From assembly GCF_000875775.1 (NCBI RefSeq), contig NZ_CP010868.1:1375707-1439706 (forward strand): 64,000 nt of DNA, read 5' to 3'. A model generated the notes under the pieces. It did no database searches. It was not told where the DNA came from and was given only the letters and a program-made list of their open reading frames with translations. Source of the DNA: Nitrosopumilus piranensis. Lineage in GTDB: Archaea; Thermoproteota; Nitrososphaeria; Nitrososphaerales; Nitrosopumilaceae. Below, piece by piece: positions 7,179 through 28,189 of this stretch. Position 1 is the stretch's first letter. Each line of letters opens with the position of its first letter. The translations under genes and the position numbers were made by a program.

Positions 7179-8504
7179 CTAACCTAATCCCATTCTTCTA
7201 AGAGTTCCTTGCATTTGCCTTCCTTTGGAGGCCTTCATCATATTCTTAGAATTTTTGTAATTTTTAATCAGTTCTTTAACTTCACCTTCTGGCCAGCCTG
7301 AACCACGAGCAATTCTCTTAATTCTAGAGGAGTTTAACAAGTCAGGATCTGCTTTCTCTTCTTTGGTCATACTTTGTATAATGTATCTCCATTTTGAGAC
7401 TCTGTCCTCCATTTGGTTTACTTGATCATCTTTTACCATTCCAGAAAGACCAGGCATACTTTCTAGCAGCCCTTGAAGTGAACCAACTTTAGTTACTTCC
7501 TCTAATTGATAAAAAAAATCATCCATGTTCATCTTTCCACTAGAAATTCTTTTCATTCTAACATCATCACCCTCATTTTCCAAACGTTTTGCCAGATCTA
7601 GAACGGCTTGAATGTCACCCATCCCCAACAAACGGCCAACAAATCTTGTTGGAGAGAACTTTTCTAAATCATCAATTCGTTCACCAGTACCAATGTACAT
7701 TATCTGTGCACCAGTAGCTGCAGATGCAGCTAATGCACCACCGCCCTTTGCAGAACTATCTAATTTTGTAATTATTACACCACCCACAGGGATTGTTTTG
7801 TGAAATGCTTCAGCTTGATTGAAACACTGTTGCCCAATTGTTCCATCAATTACAAGTAATGCTAAATCGGGATCAGTAACTTTGTTGATTCTATCCATTT
7901 CTTCAAGCAGATCTTGTTCTTCCTTATGACGACCTGCAGTATCAATTAAGATAACATCTAGGGGTTGATCCTCAAAATGTTTCAGTCCATTTTTTACAAT
8001 ACTAGGGGAATCTTTGTTATTTTCTTCACCAAATACCTCAACATTGGATTTTTCACACATTGTTTTGAGCTGTACCAAAGCGCCAGGTCGGTAGGTATCT
8101 GCTCCAATAACACCAACTTTGTATCCTTGTCTAGTGAGGAATTTAGCAAGTTTTGATGCAACAGTAGTTTTACCACTTCCCTGAATTCCCAAAAGAATGA
8201 TTTTATTTTGTTTTCCAGGCTTGAAATCAAATTCTGATTCATTTCCAAGTAGGTTTGAGAGTTCATCATAGAGTATTTTTACAATATGATCCTTTCTAGA
8301 AAGACCGGGTGGAGGGGTTTCGTTTAGAGCGCGTTCCTCCAAGTGTTTTGTTATTTCAAGAACCAATCTCACATTAACATCAGATTGGAGTAGTGCCCTT
8401 TGAACATCCTTTGAGAGTTCCTTAATAAGTTCTTCATCTATTCCTGAGGATTTGACAATTTTTTTGATTGCATCGCCTAAACTACTCTTAAGTCCATCAA
8501 GCAT
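7179..8504 (-). CDS. srp54: Signal recognition particle protein SRP54
   Basis: SRP54 is the GTPase subunit that binds signal peptides and SRP RNA and delivers ribosomes to the membrane receptor. The 441-residue protein shows an N helical domain (1-~90) and a G domain with the P-loop GIQGSGKT (106-113), DTAGRH and TKLDSSAKGGG. The Met-rich M domain carries SMPGLSGM and RIKRIARGSGW. Length is normal. Its start overlaps the dph6 stop by 8 bases. SRP19 is encoded 9 kb away at 16987. Confidence 0.95.
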   Translation of the reverse strand: MLDGLKSSLGDAIKKIVKSSGIDEELIKELSKDVQRALLQSDVNVRLVLEITKHLEERALNETPPPGLSRKDHIVKILYDELSNLLGNESEFDFKPGKQNKIILLGIQGSGKTTVASKLAKFLTRQGYKVGVIGADTYRPGALVQLKTMCEKSNVEVFGEENNKDSPSIVKNGLKHFEDQPLDVILIDTAGRHKEEQDLLEEMDRINKVTDPDLALLVIDGTIGQQCFNQAEAFHKTIPVGGVIITKLDSSAKGGGALAASAATGAQIMYIGTGERIDDLEKFSPTRFVGRLLGMGDIQAVLDLAKRLENEGDDVRMKRISSGKMNMDDFFYQLEEVTKVGSLQGLLESMPGLSGMVKDDQVNQMEDRVSKWRYIIQSMTKEEKADPDLLNSSRIKRIARGSGWPEGEVKELIKNYKNSKNMMKASKGRQMQGTLRRMGLG

Positions 8505-9186
8505 TGTAATTCAATTCTGCATCCACTATTTCAAACCTTCCTCTATAGCCATCCCATTTTTTTTCTGATTGATTAATTTTGATCGAGTTTGAAAATAAAG
8601 GACAGCCAATTACAAATGTTTCAGCTTCGCCACCTTCAAAATTTAAATTGAATCCAAACTTTTTAGATAGTTTTTTTAGAGTTTGTATTTCATTAATCCC
8701 AATTGATTTTCCCAACCATGAATCATCCAAGCCATCAGATGAAACAGTTATCATAATAAATGAAAAATTTGCTTCAAGTAAATCATTCATGTATTGTTCG
8801 GGTTCTGCATTCCACAATGGTGCAACTATAACCAAATTATATTTTGAACAAACCTTTTCAAATTTTTCTTTTTGGAAATTGCTTTTAATTCCACCATGCA
8901 CTATTCCTTTTACTCCATATTCATCCTTTGCAGTCTTCAATAAAATTTCTAATGCAGATAATTCATCATCAGTTTTATCAGAATCAGAACTGATTGTGAT
9001 GTGAGGGATTTTCATTGATTCAGATTGTAATTTTGTCCATTGTATGTTTGGATGATGAAGTAAATGGCTTTCCTCAGATTTTGTAAATACACTTAGAAGA
9101 CATTCTACATCGTGGCCTTGTTTTTGTGCCAGATATATGGCATAAGTACTATCTTTTCCACCTGAAAAAAGAGACGCAAGTTTCAT
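8497..9186 (-). CDS. dph6: Diphthine--ammonia ligase (Dph6-type ATP pyrophosphatase)
   Basis: Dph6 performs the last step of diphthamide synthesis on elongation factor 2, amidating diphthine with ammonia and ATP. The 229-residue protein begins MKLASLFSGGKDSTYAIYLA, with the PP-loop SGGKDS at residues 8-13. It also has the family block VHGGIKSNFQKEKFE and the C-terminal FEGGEAETFVIGCPLF (~194-209). Length matches archaeal members. It overlaps srp54 by 8 bases. Upstream, the 111 bases to aif5A hold a C/D box guide RNA on the same strand. Confidence 0.85.
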   Translation of the reverse strand: MKLASLFSGGKDSTYAIYLAQKQGHDVECLLSVFTKSEESHLLHHPNIQWTKLQSESMKIPHITISSDSDKTDDELSALEILLKTAKDEYGVKGIVHGGIKSNFQKEKFEKVCSKYNLVIVAPLWNAEPEQYMNDLLEANFSFIMITVSSDGLDDSWLGKSIGINEIQTLKKLSKKFGFNLNFEGGEAETFVIGCPLFSNSIKINQSEKKWDGYRGRFEIVDAELNYNA

Positions 9187-9228: not shown

Positions 9229-9294
9229 GGACGCTTCAATACTCATAATCGTCATCACAAAATCAGACGGCTTTTCCGATAATCATCAGCATCC
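9229..9294 (-). ncRNA. C/D box sRNA predicted to guide 2'-O-methylation of C34 in elongator tRNA-Met
   Basis: On the minus strand a 7-bp terminal stem GGATGCT/AGCGTCC (9294-9288 with 9235-9229) encloses box C TGATGA (9288-9283), box D' CTGA (9266-9263), box C' TGATGA (9257-9252) and a variant box D TTGA (9239-9236). The 12-nt D guide just upstream of box D is complementary to ACTCATAATCG, the loop of a CAU-anticodon tRNA-Met (A31 to G41). The fifth guide base from box D pairs with C34, exactly the N+5 rule. Known archaeal sR49-type RNAs methylate this same residue. The D' guide (complement ACGGCTTTTCCGATAA) has no target I can name. The RNA begins 4 bases after the aif5A stop, so it may be processed from that mRNA. 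Confidence 0.75.
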
Positions 9295-9297
9295 GCA

Positions 9298-9708
9298 CTA
9301 TGTCTTAATGCGCATGATTTTAGTTTTATCCATCACAACCCAGTACTCTACATTTTGTCCATTTTCTAATTTACCTTTAACTTCATCATCAATTAGACTG
9401 ACGTCAATTGTTTCAAAAGTTTCAGAGTCCATAACTTGTACTGTGTCACCATTAATAGAGATGATCTGACCTACTTTTTTGTTAATCATAGGCACATGAA
9501 TTTGCATACTGACAGGGCCCACATGAGGTCTTTTTTGACCATCAAAAATTCCTTCAGCTACAATTCTTGCTTTTGCTGCACCATGTTTTCCTGGTTTAGA
9601 TGTATCATATTCAACAATTCTACATGGCTCACCACTTGGTTGATCTGAGTGAGGTAATAGAATGTAAGAACCAATTTTTAACGAACCTAAATCAGATGGT
9701 TTACTCAT
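9298..9708 (-). CDS. eif5a: Translation initiation factor 5A (aIF5A)
   Basis: aIF5A assists peptide-bond formation and carries hypusine or deoxyhypusine. From the ATG at 9708 the protein reads MSKPSDLGSLKIGSY; the modification loop TSKPGKHGAAK places the modified Lys at residue 41. The C-terminal OB fold (TVQVMDSETFETIDV) follows. Length (136 aa) is normal. The open frame extends 14 codons upstream, but that part has no family similarity, so 9708 is chosen. A C/D box sRNA lies immediately downstream. Confidence 0.92.
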   Translation of the reverse strand: MSKPSDLGSLKIGSYILLPHSDQPSGEPCRIVEYDTSKPGKHGAAKARIVAEGIFDGQKRPHVGPVSMQIHVPMINKKVGQIISINGDTVQVMDSETFETIDVSLIDDEVKGKLENGQNVEYWVVMDKTKIMRIKT

Positions 9709-11577: not shown

Positions 11578-11701
11578 CCCAAGCTAGCTCAGCCTGGTAG
11601 AGCTTCCGGCTGTAGTTGTTGGCTTTAGATGGCTGACCAAATAACAGCATATCAGGCATACAGAAACCGGGTTGTCGAAGGTTCAATTCCTTCGCTTGGG
11701 A
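11578..11701 (+). tRNA. tRNA-Tyr (GTA) with a 50-nt intron
   Basis: The acceptor stem CCCAAGC (11578-11584) pairs with GCTTGGG (11694-11700), the D stem GCTC pairs with GAGC, and the T arm is GAAGG-TTCAATT-CCTTC (11677-11693). The anticodon stem TCCGG/CCGGG closes a loop with anticodon GTA at 11612-11614. Between positions 37 (11615) and 38 (11666) lies an intron at 11616-11665, the canonical archaeal site cut by the splicing endonuclease at a bulge-helix-bulge. CCA (11702-11704) appears encoded after discriminator A11701. A T/A-rich promoter (tagttttttaatag) lies about 30 bases upstream. Confidence 0.93.
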
Positions 11702-28088: not shown

Positions 28089-28189
28089 TGCAGAGAGTGG
28101 GATTTGAACCCACGAACTCCTAAAAGAAGGGATTTCCTATTTGGAAGATCTTGAGTCCCTCTCGGTTGACCGGGCTTCGATATCTCTGC
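28089..28189 (-). tRNA. tRNA-Leu (CAA) with a 16-nt intron
   Basis: On the minus strand, acceptor GCAGAGA pairs with TCTCTGC, T arm GTGGG-TTCAAAT-CCCAC, and D arm TCG...CGA. The anticodon stem AGGGA (28160-28156) pairs perfectly with TCCCT (28132-28128) only if 16 bases (28149-28134) are removed between positions 37 and 38, leaving loop CTCAAGA with anticodon CAA (28153-28151). The long variable arm (14 nt) is typical of leucine tRNA. No CCA is encoded. The short intron at the canonical 37/38 site needs the archaeal splicing endonuclease. Confidence 0.9.

Follow-up and report, generated by a model that had tools for sequence, protein, structure and literature searches.

Positions 9229–9294 of the minus strand of the window (the whole 64,000-nucleotide stretch of DNA that was analysed, from a marine ammonia-oxidising archaeon) were assigned to a C/D box sRNA with two guides. 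Its D guide would direct 2'-O-methylation of C34 of elongator tRNA-Met, and its D' guide would direct 2'-O-methylation of 23S rRNA C2602 (E. coli C2510). This dual-guide reading was given a probability of about 0.88 because of sequence conservation, covariation of the terminal stem, complementarity of both guides to their targets, coevolution of the 23S guide with its target and the presence of fibrillarin and Nop5 genes. Judged from its sequence, the element is a real C/D box sRNA of an already known type; the mixture of predicted tRNA and rRNA targets and the conserved linkage of aIF5A, sRNA and dph6 are its notable features.

The RNA measured 66 nt from stem to stem, was delimited by conserved sequence and class-wide covariance-model matches, and read GGATGCT GAT GATTATC GGAAAAGCCGT CTGA TTTT GTGATGA CGATTATGAGTA TTGA AGCGTCC on the minus strand from 9294 to 9229. 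All elements named in the original prediction (boxes D' and C', a variant box D, the D guide and a 7-bp stem) were found on this strand, with boxes C, D', C' and D in order and spacers of 13 and 12 nt. The 5' arm GGATGCT (9288–9294) and 3' arm AGCGTCC (9229–9235) form the 7-bp terminal stem, which carries compensatory changes. Between them lie box C (ATGATTA, 9280–9286), the D' guide spacer TCGGAAAAGCCGT (9267–9279), box D' (CTGA, 9263–9266), box C' (GTGATGA, 9252–9258), the D guide spacer CGATTATGAGTA (9240–9251) and box D (TTGA, 9236–9239), all on the minus strand. The register of box C (consensus RUGAUGA, positions 1–4 invariant) was set by the covarying stem and a 3-nt bulge, GAT; the upstream CTGATGA, probably the register first proposed, was rejected, since it reads CTAATGA or CCGATGA in relatives and gives no covarying stem, unlike the register adopted here. 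A hairpin in the D' region (CGG-AAAAG-CCG) was considered as a candidate and set aside once the 23S pairing was found. Boxes C and D would fold into a k-turn and boxes C' and D' into a k-loop, and L7Ae, Nop5 and fibrillarin would bind the sRNA. Genes for fibrillarin and Nop5 are adjacent in the host genome (G000:C1:1616524-1618258), a single contig of 1.71 Mb.

Conservation was assessed at 80 aIF5A loci from public species genomes of Nitrosopumilaceae and relatives. The sRNA was present at 65 of the 80, with a 66th copy interrupted by a contig end; where it was absent, dph6 was also absent from the stretch examined. Alignment of the aIF5A–dph6 gap in relatives, which had been suggested as a check, showed boxes and guide to be conserved. 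GGAAAAGCC, CTGA, TGATGA and GATTATGAGT were invariant in 39 distinct Nitrosopumilaceae sequences; part of these motifs had been demanded by the first regular expression, so conservation is better judged from the independent searches with covariance models. Within the class, a model built from this RNA (R1) matched 302 of 400 genomes, and within the phylum a model built from diverse families (R2) matched 118 of 398; the match of the RNA itself scored 91 bits (E 6.5e-22). Among Nitrosopumilaceae, 99.3% of terminal-stem cells were paired and 5 of 7 pairs had changed on both sides, rising to 7 of 7 in the wider, cross-family set. The covariation score was reached by none of 500 shuffles, and slid versions of the stem collapsed.

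The GA of box C and the GA of box D, corresponding to the tandem G-A pairs of the k-turn, were invariant, and the 3-nt bulge is GAT given the covarying stem. Around this core the boxes vary by clade. The window has ATGATTA as box C, where the sister clade has ATGATGA. Box D was TTGA in 39 and ATGA (the sister-clade form) in 27 of the 66 copies, and CTGA in none of them; several other families have CTGA. The variant boxes (AUGAUUA and UUGA) are thus kept across a clade, and the TTGA earlier singled out as unusual is a real departure but typical of this clade. A Watson-Crick pair between position 6 of box C and position 1 of box D was absent from all 66 Nitrosopumilaceae copies, in which the pair was mostly U-U, G-A in 27 and G-U in 4; it is G-C again in some other families. 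This pair is a typical and dispensable feature of archaeal C/D box sRNAs. It is demanded by snoReport (PMC7994747), and a program of that kind would miss the sRNA because the pair is not Watson-Crick in Nitrosopumilaceae. The degenerate C/D k-turn is one of the less ordinary features of this RNA.

The D guide was compared with the three CAU tRNAs of the host genome: elongator tRNA-Met (G000:C1:679754-679867, minus strand), initiator tRNA-Met (G000:C1:97486-97542) and tRNA-Ile2 (L017). The initiator was presumed from A1-U72 and GGG:CCC, and Ile2 from its GGGCCCG ends. GATTATGAGT (9241–9250) pairs contiguously with A31–C40 of elongator tRNA-Met (10 bp, matching ACTCATAATC), and the N+5 base at 9244 faces C34, as had been predicted for the fifth guide base. 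The ten-nucleotide match to the genomic loop stood, but the eleventh base earlier assumed, G41, is U here. Against the unspliced precursor 11 bp were formed, the extra pair lying at N1 only, and the initiator and Ile2 tRNAs gave 7 bp each. The anticodon stem of elongator tRNA-Met is restored only if its intron is cut between positions 30 and 31, giving the spliced sequence CCAG-ACTCATAATCTGG; this intron thus interrupts the anticodon stem and is not at 37/38. The proposal of a thaumarchaeal sRNA functionally like sR49, for elongator C34, is supported by conservation, by covariation of the stem, by the fit to the tRNA of the host itself and by the weaker pairing with the two other CAU tRNAs. 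Separately, the initiator tRNA has a D-arm insertion, was missed by ARAGORN and gave only a partial match to the Rfam tRNA model.

The D' guide, previously described as an orphan, was found to fit 23S rRNA when the host rRNAs and tRNAs were searched. GGAAAAGCCG (9268–9277) pairs over 10 bp with CGGCTTTTCC at positions 2599–2608 of the host's own 23S rRNA, and its base at 9271, in the N+5 position, is opposite C2602. The E. coli counterpart of C2602 in the alignment is C2510, which is only four nucleotides away from U2506, a member of the peptidyl transferase ring. The N1 base of this guide mismatches U2506, a mismatch also shown by SNORD49. As a control, 400 shuffled guides were compared with the rRNA and tRNA set of the host genome; 6 of the 400 gave 10 contiguous pairs including N+5, as against both real guides.

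Guide and target were then compared across 25 genomes (4 Nitrosopumilaceae, 16 from other families of the class and 5 from another group of the phylum). The guide GGAAAAGCC pairs with 23S GGCUUUUCC in Nitrosopumilaceae, and the guide GAAGAGCC pairs with 23S GGCUCUUC in the other genomes checked (21 of 21). The fuller form outside Nitrosopumilaceae is 23S CGGCUCUUCC with guide GAAGAGCCG. One base pair thus differs, A-U in the 4 Nitrosopumilaceae and G-C in the 21 others, with no exceptions among the 25; the two forms of the guide are GGAAAAGCC and GGAAGAGCC, facing the U and C versions of 23S. By this sequence comparison the 23S guide and its target have evolved together, perhaps through one change only, in the ancestor of Nitrosopumilaceae, along a path made easy by the available G-U intermediate.

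The sRNA lies between the genes for aIF5A (9298–9705, minus strand; TIGR00037, PF01287), directly upstream, and diphthine-ammonia ligase (dph6; 8497–9186, minus strand; TIGR03679), directly downstream; SRP54 (7179–8504, minus strand) follows dph6. It begins 3 nt past the aIF5A stop codon, a gap earlier put at 4 bases, and 42 nt separate its end from dph6. The most constant neighbour in Nitrosopumilaceae is dph6, which follows the sRNA at almost every locus, including those with aIF5A 0.1–1.7 kb away; the distance to the start of dph6 hardly varies from about 48 nt. Other families have aIF5A, dph6 or both as flanking genes. In another class of the phylum the sRNA follows aIF5A, often before SRP54, or lies beside unrelated genes; there the D' guide is unchanged and the D guides differ. 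Since other lineages keep the locus and the D' guide and swap the D guide, this comparison makes the locus and its 23S guide old, and the guide for tRNA-Met either younger or more readily exchanged.

A TATA-like CTAAAAT (9317–9323, minus strand) lies at -29 from the start of the stem, within the last codons of aIF5A (overlapping those for TKI). Among 20 sRNA copies located away from aIF5A, a TATA-like TAAAAT preceded the stem by about 29 nt, and the exact CTAAAAT stood at -29/-30 in 16 of the 20. Because this element persists without an adjacent aIF5A gene, the sRNA probably has its own putative promoter in the coding end of aIF5A, from which it would be transcribed, although conservation of the element may partly be a relic of decayed aIF5A sequence. 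The same element makes it less likely that the sRNA arises solely by processing from the aIF5A mRNA, a source that the original prediction had suggested as possible.

Three other explanations were weighed. That a single guide works, with either D' (23S) or D (tRNA) methylating and the other serving as a passenger or folding chaperone, is improbable, though it is the strongest of the three: it would accommodate the replacement of the D guide beside a retained D' guide in other lineages, but both guides are invariant over 9–10 nt in the 39 distinct Nitrosopumilaceae sequences, both put their target at N+5 with a 12–13 nt spacer, and a eukaryotic counterpart guide exists for both target sites. 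It is much less probable still that the element acts in cis, as a k-turn leader of dph6 or a 3' UTR element of aIF5A through which L7Ae would regulate the mRNA. L7Ae binds k-turns in archaeal mRNAs (PMC5539422), and the near-constant spacing to dph6 in Nitrosopumilaceae would suit such a role; a cis element cannot account for the complementarity of two guides to rRNA and tRNA and the coevolving base, and in another class the RNA stands before SRP54 or by unrelated genes. That an intergenic sequence merely happens to look like a C/D RNA can practically be discounted: short degenerate boxes do arise by chance, but the E value of the window's own copy stands against it, as does the fact that hundreds of genomes show conservation and covariation.

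The dual-guide C/D box sRNA may be extended to a broader proposal, in which one ancient sRNP would couple maturation of the tRNA-Met wobble base and the peptidyl transferase region, for that reason being kept beside aIF5A, dph6 and SRP54 with a promoter in the aIF5A coding end and a 23S guide orthologous to SNORD49. We regard this as speculative and rather unlikely. The predicted dual guide adds, for a mesophilic lineage, two predicted methylation sites with eukaryotic counterparts (SNORD97 and SNORD49), and provides a natural case of guide–target coevolution (guide A/G against 23S U/C). It would also be an exception to the reported pattern in which tRNA-guiding sRNAs have an idle second guide.

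A second C/D sRNA was observed in the host genome (L155, G000:C1:110893-110955, minus strand), with a homologue in L263; its D guide GGATCTTGAGTT fits the anticodon loop of tRNA-Leu(CAA) (window 28089–28189, minus strand) with C34 at N+5. This tRNA and tRNA-Tyr(GUA) (11578–11701, plus strand) contain introns and were unreported by ARAGORN on the window. In one locus of another family (L178) the 23S D' guide is joined to a D guide fitting tRNA-Leu(CAA), and in two more (L182 and L184) the D guide ATCGAGG is complementary to 23S CCUCGAU, in the region of E. coli C2501. These sequences suggest that guide halves are exchanged.

Comparison with known RNAs placed the whole sRNA below the gathering threshold of every Rfam family, and assignment to an existing family was rejected on these scores; the literature searched held no description of C/D sRNAs of ammonia-oxidising archaea. 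For the 23S site, the methylation 28S Cm4456 (Cm4426 in the old numbering) is guided by eukaryotic SNORD49, plant U49 and Plasmodium PFS9, and we take human 28S C4456 to be the equivalent of E. coli C2510. On the homologue L163 the SNORD49 model (RF00277) scored 22.1 bits (E 0.0016), under its 37-bit gathering threshold, with the SNORD49 guide AGGAAGUGCCGUC aligned on AGGAAGAGCCGUC. SNORD49, a guide for 28S Cm4456 (PMC9941101), resembles the present RNA in that AGGAAGUGCCGUC aligns with GGAAAAGCCGUC at an equal distance from box D' and for an equal target C, but differs by one mismatch within its guide and has no tRNA-Met guide; the two guides may equally well have converged on a favourable target site as be orthologous. 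Human SNORD97 and SCARNA97 guide tRNA-Met Cm34 (PMC6601510), the identical target nucleotide, also from box D, but their model is 142 nt long and its Rfam match was weak (22 bits, E 0.064). Archaeal dual guides typically target two nearby rRNA sites (Dennis 2015, PMC4644070); the present RNA shares with them two guides, a symmetric k-turn and k-loop and a methylation hot spot close to the peptidyl transferase centre, but its predicted targets are a tRNA and 23S rRNA. A homologue scored an insignificant 15.2 bits (E 2.2) with RF02163 (sR-tMet), whose gathering threshold is 50 bits, and the window was unlisted for that family. Pyrococcus sR49 is a predicted guide for tRNA-Met Cm34, and the guides of sR49 and Haloferax sR-tMet pair partly with intron sequence (PMC2584109). 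Like these, the present RNA is a free-standing, non-intronic C/D sRNA with elongator tRNA-Met C34 at N+5; unlike them, it has a 10-nt target that is all exon, following the 30/31 intron, and its other guide would serve 23S rRNA.
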